From positions 366,501 through 430,500 of the forward strand of contig NZ_JAQTOD010000002.1 in NCBI RefSeq assembly GCF_028713515.1: a stretch of 64,000 bases of DNA, written 5' to 3'. Shown piece by piece: positions 56,882 to 63,892 of this stretch; position 1 is the first letter of the stretch, and each line of letters starts with the position of its first letter. The notes below the pieces were generated by a model. The model saw nothing but the letters and a program-made list of their open reading frames with translations, did no database searches and was not told the DNA's origin. A program made the translations under genes and the position numbers. Source of the DNA: Sulfurimonas sp. (lineage in GTDB: Bacteria; Campylobacterota; Campylobacteria; Campylobacterales; Sulfurimonadaceae).

Positions 56882-58225
56882 ATGGCTATTTCAAGAAGAG
56901 ATGTTTTTAAACTCTCGGGCATAGCGGTTGCCTCTTCTGCGCTAAATGCGAGCGCTAATGTCGTGAACGCAAAACCAACTAAAAATACCAATCCAACAAC
57001 TGATTATAATGCACCATTAGCACCTACTAAAAAACCGAGGGTTGTTATTGTAGGTGGCGGATGGTCTGGATTATCAATTGCAAAATATACAAAAATATTT
57101 GCTCCAAATGCGGATGTAATTTTAGTAGAACAGAGACATGAGTTCATCTCCTGCCCACTTAGTAACTTGTGGCTAGTGGACAAGGTAAAGCTTGAATACC
57201 TAACACATGACTATCTTCAAGCAGCTAGAGAAAACAAATATACATATTTTCACGCGACTGCAGTTGATTTAGATAAAAAAAATCAGATTTTAAAAACAAG
57301 CAATGGCAATATTAAATATGATTATTTAGTTTTTGCTCCAGGGATTGACTACGACTACTCTAGATGGACAAAAGATATAGCTTTTGAAAACAGACTAAGA
57401 CAAGAGTATCCTGCAGGATTTATCCCAGGCTCTGAGCATATGACGCTAAAAAATAAAGTTTTAAATTTTAAAGGTGGTAATTTCATACTTACAGTTCCAG
57501 GTGGAAATTACAGATGTCTTCCTGCGCCGTATGAGAGAGCTTGTATCATAGCTGACTATTTCAAAGAGAAAAAACTAGATGCTAAAGTAATTTTACTTGA
57601 TGAAAATAGCACTATCACCATCAAAGAAAAAGGCTTTCAGTCTGCTTTTGATGAGCTGTACGCTGATTATATTCAGTATGTTCCGGGAACAACCATAACG
57701 CAAATAGACTTAGACAAAAAAATCGTTCGTACAGAATTTGATCAGTTTGAGTTTAATGATGCTGCTTTTTATCCTCATGTACGAGGTGCTAAAATTTTAG
57801 AGAGAGTAGGTCTCGCAAAAGAGGGCAAAAATATGTTAGAAGCGCATATTAACCCACTTACATACGAAGCTATAGATGCGAAGAATATTTTTATTACAGG
57901 CGATTCTCGTCCAATGGGCTTTTCAAAATCCGGTAACACCTCAAACTCAGAGGGGCATTTTGTTGCATCATTAATCGCACAGAAAATCAATAAAAACCAA
58001 AAAATTAAGTGGGAGTCACCAACCACAACCTGTTTTTCCGCCGTCTCAATTGCTCCAGAAAAAGCGATTTACATATATACTCAATACTCATATGACAAAG
58101 TAAGTGATACTTTTGATTTTGCAGATACCACCAGCAGTGAAGATTGGAAAAAAGATGGGATAAAAAATGCAAGCTCTCTTTATGATTGGGCGGATGCTCT
58201 TTATGCAGATATGTTTAATTCATAA
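56882..58225 (+). CDS. Tat-exported flavocytochrome c sulfide dehydrogenase flavoprotein (FccB/SoxF-like)
   Basis: A 447-aa periplasmic flavoprotein. It starts with a twin-arginine signal (SRRDVFKLSG, residues 4-13), then the FAD-binding VVIVGGGWSGLSIAKY (54-69). C91 in EFISCPLSNLW matches the cysteine that links FAD covalently in FccB. C212 and C221 and a later Cys (TTTCFSAVS) may form the redox disulfide. FccB oxidises sulfide and passes electrons to a FccA cytochrome, which is not next to it here. SoxF or a sulfide:quinone oxidoreductase relative is the alternative. Confidence 0.88.
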   Translation: MAISRRDVFKLSGIAVASSALNASANVVNAKPTKNTNPTTDYNAPLAPTKKPRVVIVGGGWSGLSIAKYTKIFAPNADVILVEQRHEFISCPLSNLWLVDKVKLEYLTHDYLQAARENKYTYFHATAVDLDKKNQILKTSNGNIKYDYLVFAPGIDYDYSRWTKDIAFENRLRQEYPAGFIPGSEHMTLKNKVLNFKGGNFILTVPGGNYRCLPAPYERACIIADYFKEKKLDAKVILLDENSTITIKEKGFQSAFDELYADYIQYVPGTTITQIDLDKKIVRTEFDQFEFNDAAFYPHVRGAKILERVGLAKEGKNMLEAHINPLTYEAIDAKNIFITGDSRPMGFSKSGNTSNSEGHFVASLIAQKINKNQKIKWESPTTTCFSAVSIAPEKAIYIYTQYSYDKVSDTFDFADTTSSEDWKKDGIKNASSLYDWADALYADMFNS

Positions 58226-59776: not shown

Positions 59777-60625
59777 TTACTTAAATGGCTTTGATAAGTC
59801 TTTGATAACATCCCCAGGAACAGTTGCTATTCCGGCAAATTGTCCCATACCAAGCAAAGGATAGTTCATTGCGATATAGTACTCTGCTTGAAGCATAGTC
59901 GCTTTTCCACCGCTTACAACTATTGGCCAAGGCATTAAACCAGCATTAGCACGACCAATTTTATCCACAAATCTTTTTGTTCCAGCACCAACACCGTAAC
60001 CAACTAAAGTTGTGTCATTAGAAATCTTAAGTTCAAATGCAAAGTCTTTGCCACCTTTGTAAGCCTTCAGTTTTGCTAGCAAGTCAGCATTATTGCCCTC
60101 ACCAAGAACTTTAGCATCCTCATAATAAGGCATACCTATAGTAAAATGAAAACCTGCTAAATCTTTAAACTTCATTTTGTCTTCAGAATCTTTAAGACCA
60201 GGAAATGCTTTTTCAAGTTTAGCTTTTACAGCTGCAAAAGTTGCATGATTGTAATCCTTTTGCATATAAGCTTTGCCAAAATAAAGTGGATTTGTCAAAG
60301 ATATTGTTTTTTCTTTATCATCAACAAAAAGTCTCATTGCAGCAATATTTGCACGATTGGGCTTAGCTGCCTCTTTTTTTAGTGTAGGGCAAGTAAATAC
60401 GATAGTCTTACCATCTTTTACACTCTCAAAAGTGGATATTACTTCAAATCCAGCAGCGTTGAGCTTGCTCTGTGCATCAGCAACACTAATATATGCACCT
60501 TGAAGATAAGCACTAACTTCCCCACTTGGCTCGCCGCTACTTGCTTGTGCTTCAGTGCTATTTCCTGCCCAACCAAAAAAAGTTAGTACAAACGCCCCAA
60601 ATAAAATAGTTAATAATTTTTTCAT
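59777..60625 (-). CDS. Exported protein of unknown function in the FadL/DUF302 cluster
   Basis: A 282-aa protein with signal peptide (about 1-20, VLTFFGWAG) and a short acidic/Ser linker before the folded part. The conserved-looking C-terminus (AGLMPWPIVVSGGKATMLQAEYYIAMNYPLLGMGQF) suggests a single domain with an aromatic-rich core. I do not recognise the family. It overlaps the previous gene by 4 bp, so it is translated with it, and is probably a partner of the DUF302-like protein. Confidence 0.75.
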   Translation of the reverse strand: MKKLLTILFGAFVLTFFGWAGNSTEAQASSGEPSGEVSAYLQGAYISVADAQSKLNAAGFEVISTFESVKDGKTIVFTCPTLKKEAAKPNRANIAAMRLFVDDKEKTISLTNPLYFGKAYMQKDYNHATFAAVKAKLEKAFPGLKDSEDKMKFKDLAGFHFTIGMPYYEDAKVLGEGNNADLLAKLKAYKGGKDFAFELKISNDTTLVGYGVGAGTKRFVDKIGRANAGLMPWPIVVSGGKATMLQAEYYIAMNYPLLGMGQFAGIATVPGDVIKDLSKPFK

Positions 60626-61635
60626 ACTTCTTTTGCTCCTAAACTAATCATAATGCTTCTGATTTTAGCATCCATCTCTTTGATATATTGAATCTGCTTT
60701 GGATCAGTTAATTTACCAAAAGTTATCCAATTTTCTACGCTTGGCATACCCACATGTAGTACATTTTTACCTTTTTCAACATACATATACATTGAACAAG
60801 GAGCAGATGCACCTAATTCAGGATGCTGCCATACATTAAACACTGTATATGAAAATGTGAAGTGGCAAAGTGAATACACCCAATAAGCATCATATCTATC
60901 AAATTTTAAGTTATTATCGGCGTAATATTCACCAAAATCCCTCTTGCCTGCAATGATGTAATCTTCAGCTTCAAATGCTTTTTCAAATTTACCCATAAAA
61001 TCAAATTTAGCTTCTAAAATATCACTTCCTCTATCAAAAGGAATCTCAAACTGCATCATAGTTTTATCATTAAGCTTGTTTATCTCAACATACTCAACTT
61101 TTCCCTTCATTCCAGCATCAGTAATAGCAGATAAGCCATCAATATATTTAGTAAATTCTGCTCTAATCGCAGGATCTTTTACCTTAGTAATATCAAGCAT
61201 TGCTTGAGGTGTTAAAGTACCAACAAAAGTCTTATCATCACTTTTTTTCTTATATATAAGATAGTTAAGAGGAGCGAAACCACCAAGAGTTGGCTCTTTT
61301 AAAAGCATCTCTCTTATTTTTGGCTCACCAGCTATTGTTATAAAACCAAGATTATCTAAATTCTCAACATAATCTGTTTTAAACTTAGGATTTGGCTTGC
61401 CATCTTTTAGTAGTTTAGTACCGTAGAAGAGATTGTAGTAAAACTCTATTCCTGGATGAGAATCTTTTGGAGTAAATCCAGCATCCTCTAAATCAACTTC
61501 TAATATTCCATTAAAAGCATCATTTCTCTCTTTTTTATCTCCGCTAGACACATTAAGTCTGATAGCCTGATAGCCAAACGCAACAGTAGCACTAAGCGAT
61601 AACGCAACTGCTAATTTTAAGAATGTCTTTAACAT
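60622..61635 (-). CDS. Exported DUF302-like protein
   Basis: A 337-aa periplasmic protein. The signal peptide covers about 1-21 (LAVALSLSATVAFG); ATG 61635 is chosen because AAGGAAG lies 4 nt upstream, while the longer frame from 61674 runs through the palindromic leader. The C-terminal half contains CHFTFSYTVFN and APCSMYMYVEKGKNVLHVGMPSVENWI, which matches the DUF302 cysteine-strand-helix pattern. Function unknown; it is expressed from a leader duplicated in front of the DUF302 lipoprotein. Confidence 0.75.
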   Translation of the reverse strand: MLKTFLKLAVALSLSATVAFGYQAIRLNVSSGDKKERNDAFNGILEVDLEDAGFTPKDSHPGIEFYYNLFYGTKLLKDGKPNPKFKTDYVENLDNLGFITIAGEPKIREMLLKEPTLGGFAPLNYLIYKKKSDDKTFVGTLTPQAMLDITKVKDPAIRAEFTKYIDGLSAITDAGMKGKVEYVEINKLNDKTMMQFEIPFDRGSDILEAKFDFMGKFEKAFEAEDYIIAGKRDFGEYYADNNLKFDRYDAYWVYSLCHFTFSYTVFNVWQHPELGASAPCSMYMYVEKGKNVLHVGMPSVENWITFGKLTDPKQIQYIKEMDAKIRSIMISLGAKEV

Positions 61636-61660
61636 TGTCTTCCTTTTTCTATTTAAGTTA

Positions 61661-61703
61661 ACTTTGTGATACATTTATCACAAAGTAAATCTGAAATATT
61701 ATA
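61661..61703 (-). promoter_or_regulatory. Promoter-leader with 26-bp palindrome, copy A
   Basis: Perfect arms ACTTTGTGATA (61661-61671) and TATCACAAAGT (61676-61686) around CATT. Just upstream on the minus strand is an extended -10 TGATATAAT (hexamer complement of 61698-61703). The palindrome therefore lies at or after the start site, in the leader of the gene at 61635. It can act as an operator or as an RNA hairpin. Confidence 0.75.
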
Positions 61704-61828
61704 TCACATAAATCTGTAACTTGTCTGAATAATATATTTTCATAAGAGCCAAAAGTCATGATACAGACAGCTTGTAAATGTGAGAGCTTAGTTCTAATTT
61801 TATAGGATGCAAAATGAAGTATAAGATA

Positions 61829-61850
61829 TTTTCACGCAAAGGCGTGAAAA
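61829..61850. terminator. Terminator after the DUF302 lipoprotein gene
   Basis: TTTTCACGC (61829-61837) and GCGTGAAAA (61842-61850) form a perfect 9-bp stem with an AAAG loop. A/T ends on both sides allow bidirectional function. On the minus strand it follows the lipoprotein stop (61875) by 24 bp. Confidence 0.7.
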
Positions 61851-61874
61851 CTAAAAACTATTACTGTGTAGTAA

Positions 61875-62459
61875 TTATTCGCCTGATGCAGCTTTAGCTG
61901 GAATCTCTTCCATTGCTTTTTTAACATTTAGCATATCTGCGAAAAGATCTGGATCAATCGGTTTTTTACTAGTTCCGCCATAGAGTGCAAGCGTCATATC
62001 CATAGAAATCAGATATCTTCTCCCGTCACCATACTCAACATATAGAACCCTACATGGCATAAAACCACCATAATAACGAGAATGATTTAACATTTTCTTG
62101 GCGATACTTAAAGAGCAGAATTCACCAATTCTAGCATGAACAACCTCATTAGGTTTTCCATCTTTGATTCTGTACATATTTTTCTCACCAACAAATCTCA
62201 TATTATAGTTTTCTGCTAGCTCTTTCATATTCTCAAAAAGATCATCCTCAGTTACATTATCTGCAACTTTCCACTCTTTCATCATGGCTTGCGCTGGATC
62301 ACCAGTTTTACCAATTACACCCATCATATCAGCGTATGCTGTTCTTGTTTCTCCTGAAAAGTCAAACACAAACACTTTACCCATATTCATATATGAACAA
62401 CCACTAAACATAGCTGCCGTTAGAATAGGTAAAAAAGTTATAACTATCTTCTTTAACAT
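61875..62459 (-). CDS. DUF302-domain lipoprotein
   Basis: A 194-aa lipoprotein with lipobox MFSGC (cysteine at about 21). The rest matches DUF302: GEFCSLSIAKKMLNHSRYYGGFMPCRVLYVEYGDGRRYLISMDM (about 112-155), with conserved cysteines in FCS and PCR. DUF302 proteins are small alpha/beta domains of unknown role. It has its own copy of the palindromic leader and terminator, separating it from its neighbours. Confidence 0.82.
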   Translation of the reverse strand: MLKKIVITFLPILTAAMFSGCSYMNMGKVFVFDFSGETRTAYADMMGVIGKTGDPAQAMMKEWKVADNVTEDDLFENMKELAENYNMRFVGEKNMYRIKDGKPNEVVHARIGEFCSLSIAKKMLNHSRYYGGFMPCRVLYVEYGDGRRYLISMDMTLALYGGTSKKPIDPDLFADMLNVKKAMEEIPAKAASGE

Positions 62460-62483
62460 TTTCTTCCTTTTTTATTTAAGTTG

Positions 62484-62526
62484 ATTTTGTGATACATTTA
62501 TCACAAAATAAATCTAAAATATTATA
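62484..62526 (-). promoter_or_regulatory. Promoter-leader with 26-bp palindrome, copy B
   Basis: Arms ATTTTGTGATA (62484-62494) and TATCACAAAAT (62499-62509) around CATT, with a TATAAT -10 (complement of 62521-62526) preceded by TGA. It is nearly identical to copy A over about 75 bp. The second base pair of the stem changed from C-G to T-A in both arms, keeping the symmetry. Confidence 0.75.
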
Positions 62527-62652
62527 TCACATAAATCTGTAAGTTATCTGAAATTTTTTTTGTTTAACTTTTTTTTGTTTACTTTAGCCGGCTCGTTGCG
62601 TTGGGCTTTTTCGATGATTTGATTTGAGTAAAATAATATTGGGGTTTAAAAA

Positions 62653-62678
62653 GTAACATCACAAAGAAGTGATGCTAC
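62653..62678 (-). terminator. Terminator after the FadL gene
   Basis: CATCAC (62657-62662) pairs with GTGATG (62669-62674), extended by GTA/TAC across one mismatch. On the minus strand it runs into ACTTTTTAAA, giving a good intrinsic terminator 18 bp past the stop. Confidence 0.65.
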
Positions 62679-62695
62679 AAAGATATAGATATCTC

Positions 62696-63892
62696 TTAGA
62701 AGTTATAGTTAAGTTGAGCACTATAGCTTGATTCAGAGTGCTTAGTTGTGATAGTACCACCACCAAAATATCCAGTAGTTGTCTCATTTTCTAAGCCATA
62801 AACAGCTGCAAGGTCAAGTGAAAGCGTTTTGTTTAAATTTACAGTTCCACCAAAAGTTATGTGAGTCTCTTCAGAGCCTGGGAAACCTAGTTGATTAAAT
62901 GTATTTCCTAAGTTTGCCGGTCCACCAGTTAAAGCTGCTGAATTTGCATTATTTTGAATTGCACTCTTTGCGTATTGGTAACCTGCACGAAGAGCCCAAC
63001 CAGTTGTTGCATACTCATAACCAATAGCCATTACATTTTGATCTTCCCAACTAAAATCTTTATAAGTTTCAGCATCTGACCACATGATTCTTCTATAGTC
63101 AATAGCTAAAGTATGATTATCCATTTTATAACTTGCACCTACACCATATTGAGCAGGAGATGAGAGTTTATTATTTGTATAACCTCCACTAGTCATTGCG
63201 CCAACAGCAGTACTTAAAACATTATCAAAATTCATCTCTATTTCAGAGATATAAACAGCCCCGAGAGTTAATCCAGCTGCCGTGTAAGATAGACCCAAGT
63301 TATAACCAAAAGCTAAATCATCAGCTACACCTGTTCCAACATTTCCTGCTAATGGATGATTATAATTAATATCTAATGAACCATACTGAACAATTGGAGT
63401 AATAGCTACAGCAAATCCATTTGTTGTATATGCTAATGGTACACCAAACTGCATAAGTTGAAGTGAAGTTGTCATATTCATTAAGGTAGGATCAGTGCTC
63501 TCTCTATAATCTACACCTAATCCACCAGTTCCCCACATACCTACACCAAAATAGAAGTTGTCATTCACCTTGCTTGCAACTGAAACAGATGGGATAACAA
63601 ACATATCTGCAGCACTATTAGACTCTACATTACCGCCAGCTGATGTTGATGTTGATACATCTGGCATAAACACAGTTCCACCGAAAGAGATTTCATTGTC
63701 AGATTTAATCTTAGTTATCATTGCTGGATTTGAAAGTGCAGACTCAGCACCATGACTAACACCGATTCCAGTTCCACCCATACCACGAGTTTTTGCCCCC
63801 ATACCAATCATCACTGAACCGTTTGTTGCAAATGCAGAAGTTGCACCTAAAGCTAAAGCAGCTACAACTGCTAGTTTAATTGTTCTTTTCAT
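62696..63892 (-). CDS. FadL/OmpP1-family outer-membrane transporter
   Basis: A 398-aa beta-barrel precursor with signal peptide (about 1-22, ALALGATSAFA) and the FadL N-terminal hatch pattern TNGSVMIGMGAKTRGMGGTGIGVSHGAESALSNPAMI (about 23-59). It ends in SYSAQLNYNF, a C-terminal aromatic typical of outer-membrane barrels. The family imports hydrophobic molecules such as long-chain fatty acids or aromatics. Low Cys, many Gly/Asn/Thr. It heads the same-strand FadL/DUF302 group. Confidence 0.92.
   Translation of the reverse strand: MKRTIKLAVVAALALGATSAFATNGSVMIGMGAKTRGMGGTGIGVSHGAESALSNPAMITKIKSDNEISFGGTVFMPDVSTSTSAGGNVESNSAADMFVIPSVSVASKVNDNFYFGVGMWGTGGLGVDYRESTDPTLMNMTTSLQLMQFGVPLAYTTNGFAVAITPIVQYGSLDINYNHPLAGNVGTGVADDLAFGYNLGLSYTAAGLTLGAVYISEIEMNFDNVLSTAVGAMTSGGYTNNKLSSPAQYGVGASYKMDNHTLAIDYRRIMWSDAETYKDFSWEDQNVMAIGYEYATTGWALRAGYQYAKSAIQNNANSAALTGGPANLGNTFNQLGFPGSEETHITFGGTVNLNKTLSLDLAAVYGLENETTTGYFGGGTITTKHSESSYSAQLNYNF

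Follow-up and report, generated by a model that had tools for sequence, protein, structure and literature searches.

A FadL-family channel inherited with secreted DUF302-fold partners in Campylobacterales points to an undescribed uptake or activation of solid sulfur

Background

What is an outer-membrane channel of the FadL family doing beside a set of exported proteins built on DUF302, a domain of unknown function? The question is raised by positions 59777-63892 of a 64,000-nucleotide stretch of Sulfurimonas sp. contig NZ_JAQTOD010000002.1 (the whole stretch is called the window below), which are filled by four minus-strand open reading frames (ORFs): the channel itself, the lipoprotein L194, and the proteins D350 and P282 (Table 1). 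An initial annotation, made from the letters and a list of ORFs, had described four exported proteins on one strand at this place, and both an ORF check and a Pfam profile search of the window proteins, which is the basis of the family assignments given here, agree. FadL channels conduct hydrophobic molecules, fatty acids and hydrocarbons being their known substrates, and to our knowledge the known ones work without dedicated periplasmic DUF302 partners. The inheritance of a FadL channel together with secreted DUF302-fold partners, as described below, points to an undescribed uptake or activation of solid sulfur.

Passage through the outer membrane and activation of water-insoluble elemental sulfur make up an open question in sulfur bacteria (PMC3440390, PMC10045233). 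Thiol-bearing proteins of the outer membrane, "not yet identified", are assumed to be required for the activation of S8 (PMC3440390), and the route of S0 uptake in Campylobacterota is unknown (PMC10045233). OprD-like porins have been proposed for S0 uptake (PMC10045233); they share with the window's channel a proposed role at the outer membrane, but belong to another barrel family and have no DUF302 partners described. DUF302 genes in sulfur-oxidation clusters are known, without a function, from Acidithiobacillia, where one lies between soxA and soxB (PMC5037610), and from Sulfitobacter, where the order is soxF-DUF302-soxH (PMC11034169); neither a FadL partner nor P282 is reported there. No description of FadL with DUF302 partners was found in the literature searched, nor was any paper on DUF302 with Sulfurimonas or on COG3439, and the initial annotation had not recognized a described system here either. 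On this comparison, the new element would be that a FadL channel has periplasmic partners of its own.

Results

FadL, D350 and P282 are conserved together

The survey of gene order covered 80 loci from genomes labelled Sulfurimonas, Sulfuricurvum and Sulfurovum, together with metagenome-assembled genomes (MAGs) labelled Arcobacter or Sulfurospirillum. (Loci have L-numbers, e.g. L046, and genomes have G-numbers; the protein L194 is distinct from the locus L194.) P282 is present in 49 of 248 genomes of Campylobacterales, is confined to that order in a phylum-wide sample of 397, and occurs in 30 of the 32 genomes having an orthologous D350 (Fisher p 2e-23). The D350 and P282 genes overlap by exactly 4 bp in 51/58 pairs, and in several families the two make up one polypeptide, arranged as D350-P282 or as D350-D350-P282. 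The commonest gene cluster within 5 kb of the pair is FadL (42 loci, with 49/49 proteins on the same strand), which lies directly upstream on that strand, at a distance of 3-319 bp, in 36 of the 42 loci with enough sequence; in families with the fusion it sometimes stands on the other side (L168, L050). The second commonest neighbour is purM, found at 22 loci and always on the opposite strand.

The order FadL-D350-P282 is kept across several contexts while the flanks differ between groups (purM, sox, other). At the purM site the set of partners varies: two congeners, L090 (G180) and L091 (G114), have FadL and L194 without D350 or P282, L039 has FadL and D350-P282 only, and the window has all four. 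Conservation of the neighbourhood had been proposed initially as a check, and it holds for FadL, D350 and P282; L194 proves optional, since it is missing from the FadL-D350-P282 loci that were sampled, and is ruled out as an obligatory partner. The gene set is not a chance association. That FadL and its DUF302 partners form a functional module is very probable, and far more certain than the substrate.

Several loci show further peculiarities. D350-P282 genes, mostly fusions, lie near a resistance-nodulation-division (RND) efflux operon in L048, L050, L051, L052 and L053, which may be background synteny. In L044, L045 and L054, past three opposite-strand genes after the pair, there are a rhodanese gene and a cluster for a molybdopterin/4Fe-4S oxidoreductase similar to type II dimethyl sulfoxide (DMSO) reductases. 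The P282 locus at G425:C7:3264-4803 is fragmented, one piece having stop codons, and represents a decaying copy. Relatives of the DUF302 lipoprotein in L096 and L102 (other Sulfurimonas-group genomes) stand between purL-like and purH-like genes, not by FadL.

The channel itself belongs by profile to the FadL/TodX transporters (PF03349), with 76.4 bits against a cut-off of 29.7 over residues 20-320, most of the barrel, and a whole-genome search finds it to be the single PF03349 match of the host. Its branch scores low against this profile, with 72 bits for the window protein compared with 150-330 for many other Campylobacterales FadLs.

Three partners of one fold class

Pfam recognizes two DUF302 proteins (PF03625, cut-off 23 bits) in the set, D350 at 25.3 bits and L194 at 31.3 bits, and the family is matched by 17 of 18 D350 relatives. 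These are the two that the initial annotation had named; as a total, two is too low, for by fold there are three. P282, which had been set down as an unknown partner, lacks any Pfam family in the window, and a Pfam scan of 37 members of its family gave chance-level matches only, PF03625 being absent from the window protein and from 37/37 of them. Modelled alone, the window P282 (predicted local distance difference test score, pLDDT, 88.6; predicted template modelling score, pTM, 0.84) matches the solved DUF302 structures 1j3m, 1q9u and 7tj1 over residues 36-144 at Z 11.1, 10.9 and 9.8, after which the first unrelated row scores 7.0. Comparison of the profile of this first domain with that of single-domain DUF302 proteins (hhalign) gives 73% and E 3.2e-5, about as strong as the first domain of D350 against DUF302. 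A natural fusion homologue of D350 and P282 (617 amino acids, L026; pLDDT 90, pTM 0.77) was also modelled, and its first domain (residues 24-159) matches these three solved DUF302 structures at Z 13.3, 12.7 and 11.6, the highest being 1q9u (root-mean-square deviation 1.9, 128 aligned). The models thus assign the first domain of P282 to the DUF302 fold, as a fold class and not as the Pfam family, so that all three FadL partners belong to one fold class.

The second domain of P282 has in the model the same order of helices and strands, with a profile E of 0.04 and no separate structural row. The fold searches listed no distinct match for the second domain of either P282 or D350, which we do not take as a sign of a new fold; searching the sequences of solved structures with the two profiles also returned nothing. 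Rows for AcrB and adaptin in the fold searches were set aside as background. Known DUF302 proteins (PF03625; solved 1q9u and 1j3m) share their fold with the first domain of D350 (Z 13.3, via the homologue) and that of P282 (Z 11), whereas D350 differs from them in being exported, tandem, cysteine-paired and coupled to FadL. The DUF302 fold is also that of the chain in PDB 7tj1 (Z 12.7 to the L026 model), so its title, "fluoride ion transporter CrcB", looks wrong.

The closest relative of P282 is from a Sulfurimonas MAG (71% identical). FadL-linked relatives mostly carry a lipobox (FSGC, FTGC, FCGC), and the signal peptide of the window P282 has Trp where most relatives have the lipobox Cys. 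It is a speculation that the presence of L194 compensates in the window for this lost Cys.

A conserved cysteine pair

Every full-length D350 relative (70/70) and every L194 relative (16/16) carries two cysteines in the form C-x(about 20-26)-PC, as do the sox-type D350-like proteins in the loci sampled. The pair is missing from P282 and from those exported single-domain DUF302 proteins of Campylobacterales that were read. In the L026 model the two residues, cysteines 240 and 264, stand at the end of one strand and at the start of the next. A Cys-His metal site across the group is unlikely because the histidine of the LCH motif in D350 is replaced, by Lys in the sox-type proteins and by Ser or Asn in L194. 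Elsewhere in the host genome (L008, 2954-3337), a single DUF302 protein with a C..PC pair and no signal peptide is encoded with an ArsR-type regulator gene on one side and an efflux operon on the other.

Linkage to sulfur oxidation

Distant D350 paralogues in the order are found within 15 kb of soxY in 60 of 83 cases, the remainder being mostly on contigs without soxY; by our estimate, chance would give a few per cent in a genome of 2 Mb that carries soxY once or twice. A single congener has D350 relatives after soxXYZAB (L222) and after soxCDYZ (L223). In L046 the D350-P282 pair itself is followed by soxC, soxD, soxY, soxZ, a thioredoxin gene and two further tandem-DUF302 genes. Relatives of L194 also occur in or beside soxCDYZ (L218, L219, L220, L221), for example in L220, where one separates soxD from soxY, and in L218, where one comes after soxZ. 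With 7 of 46 within 15 kb of soxY their linkage is weaker than that of the D350 paralogues, and a broad sox linkage of L194 is rejected on this count. At the level of genomes, SoxY is enriched where P282 is present (34/49 vs 67/199, p 8e-6). The soxCDYZ genes of the host are on another contig (C3, L224) and have no DUF302 gene with them, and the module genes lie outside the host sox cluster. Three D350-like genes near soxY at G140:C1:1763642-1772271, with identical scores and exactly 3883 bp apart, are probably a tandem triplication.

Discussion

Fold class, gene order, gene fusion, cysteine conservation and sox linkage are direct results of the computation. Their most economical reading is that FadL and its DUF302 partners import zero-valent sulfur (S8 or long polysulfanes) and prime it by thiol activation for oxidation, a reading that we hold tentatively and to which we would give somewhat less than an even chance. 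Sulfur is favoured as the substrate by the linkage to sox genes and by the conservation of the cysteine pair. FadL would be the hydrophobic entry route across the outer membrane, at whose inner face D350, the lipoprotein L194 or both would meet the substrate; the cysteine pair of these proteins would open the sulfur ring or chain and keep the sulfur as a persulfide. P282, a lipoprotein in most cases and frequently part of one polypeptide with D350, would dock or shield the carrier, and the bound sulfane sulfur would be handed to Sox, whose clusters in the phylum hold DUF302 relatives with the same cysteine pair. A hydrophobic-substrate route with periplasmic carriers had been proposed in the initial annotation, and for one part of it, FadL with dedicated DUF302 partners, other genomes give strong evidence through gene order, co-occurrence and fusion; we infer uptake as opposed to export, the identity and the hydrophobic nature of the substrate, the chemistry and the order of steps. 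It is possible, though we think it doubtful, that the outer-membrane machinery so far missing for Campylobacterota consists of FadL and the cysteine-bearing DUF302 proteins: together they would open S8 and pass persulfide sulfur on to Sox or to sulfur reductases, and P282 would represent a new family of partners with the DUF302 fold. For the question of how solid sulfur is taken up and activated, the module supplies named genes and a strictly conserved cysteine pair, and it gives a first functional context to DUF302 and to the unnamed P282 family.

Several observations weigh against sulfur import. The Sulfurovum S0 transcriptome highlights OprD-like porins, not FadL (PMC10045233). Other Campylobacterales FadLs commonly occur without DUF302 partners, P282 has no conserved cysteine, and most D350-P282 pairs stand away from sox genes, it being mainly the distant paralogues that are sox-linked. 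The proposal also presumes that S8 can pass through the channel and that the two cysteines are in the reduced state. SoxY is undetected in 15/49 of the P282 genomes, and a Sox acceptor is therefore not obligatory; sulfur reduction could take its place.

The substrate might instead be organic and hydrophobic (a fatty acid, alkane or aromatic), taken up with DUF302 proteins as lipid carriers after the manner of classical FadL systems. This would fit a family of channels generally known for fatty acids and hydrocarbons, as it would the oxidoreductase genes of the type II DMSO reductase kind near D350-P282 in Sulfuricurvum-type loci. We regard it as improbable. The conserved thiol pair is not something that lipid carriage needs, the relatives of the host are sulfur-oxidizing autotrophs, and genome-wide searches of the host found no acyl-CoA dehydrogenase and no match above cut-off to 3HCDH (3-hydroxyacyl-CoA dehydrogenase), which disfavours fatty-acid catabolism. 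Because there is one FadL only and no acyl-CoA dehydrogenase, growth of the host on fatty acids is unlikely. Equally improbable is that the two cysteines are joined in a structural disulfide and that the proteins help to maintain the outer membrane, by assembling FadL, by keeping its lipids in balance or by exporting sulfur or toxic compounds. P282 and L194 do resemble outer-membrane lipoproteins in most relatives, and several genomes have an RND efflux system close to their fused D350-P282 genes; this linkage is seen in part of the families only, with housekeeping genes between, and the sox linkage would go unexplained. BamC appears as a weak structural neighbour of P282, at a Z of 4.7 that is background level.

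Another view is that DUF302 proteins are general accessories of Sox or sulfur transfer (e.g. persulfide or polythionate carriers between enzymes), FadL being partnered for some other reason and no S8 passing through it. The strongest sox linkage is indeed that of DUF302 paralogues not beside FadL, and a role in trithionate oxidation has been suggested for sox-linked DUF302 (PMC5037610). This view nevertheless strikes us as unlikely, given that FadL is the most conserved neighbour of D350-P282 and that L194 alone likewise adjoins it. Least probable of all is conserved synteny without shared function, the genes being neighbours by common descent. Many of the loci do come from related genera, but the order FadL-D350-P282 is kept though both flanks differ, and the D350-P282 fusion, the 4-bp overlap and the swap of partners at the purM site likewise speak against it.

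Organization of the locus

Table 1. Features of the FadL-DUF302 locus, in window coordinates
Feature	Position	Strand	Basis
FadL-family outer-membrane channel, 398 amino acids	62696..63892	-	PF03349 E 2.1e-21
Terminator-like hairpin just past the FadL stop codon	62653..62678	-	10-pair stem then TTTTT, consensus scan only
L194 leader, second repeat copy, palindrome 62489-62504	62468..62552	-	85-bp repeat
L194, DUF302 lipoprotein, 194 amino acids, signal/lipobox MFSGC, cysteine pair GEFCSLSIAKKMLNHSRYYGGFMPCRV	61875..62459	-	PF03625 E 1.9e-7
D350 leader, palindrome GTGATACATTTATCAC at 61666-61681, -10-like TATAAT (second hexamer ends 61698)	61645..61729	-	85-bp repeat, promoter scan
D350, exported tandem-DUF302 protein, C-terminal SLCH...APC motif, 337 amino acids	60622..61635	-	PF03625 E 1.4e-5
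P282, exported, 282 amino acids, two divergent domains, the first with a predicted DUF302 fold	59777..60625	-	Model, fold and profile comparison

The window ends 646 bp short of the end of its contig, in a genome of 2.0 Mb that is 99.97% complete. D350 and P282 are the only overlapping pair among the four genes (ATGA). The most likely start codon of D350 is that of its second Met, an ATG at 61635 inside the 350-amino-acid mechanical ORF of 60622-61674; it has an AGGAAG ribosome site and agrees with the starts of homologues. As judged from sequence signals, the four genes probably make up three transcription units, since a terminator-like hairpin follows FadL, and the 85-bp leader is duplicated, with one copy before L194 and another before D350. 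On these signals a single four-gene operon is rejected as the less likely layout.

The two leaders form a direct repeat that is 92% identical. Both contain the perfect palindrome GTGATACATTTATCAC (GTGATA-N4-TATCAC), which occurs nowhere else in the window (0.07 expected). In G180 (L090) its core immediately precedes L194, and in G114 (L091) it lies close to the start of that gene; because it thus precedes L194 in congeners as well, D350 probably acquired its leader from L194. The shared palindrome suggests that L194 and D350 are under one regulator, and it could alternatively be an mRNA hairpin.

Two genes from P282, on the plus strand (56882-58225), the window encodes a flavoprotein resembling that of flavocytochrome c sulfide dehydrogenase. 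Homologues of it in L219 and L221 (52% and 68% identical) are encoded next to soxCDYZ and to genes for DUF302 proteins.

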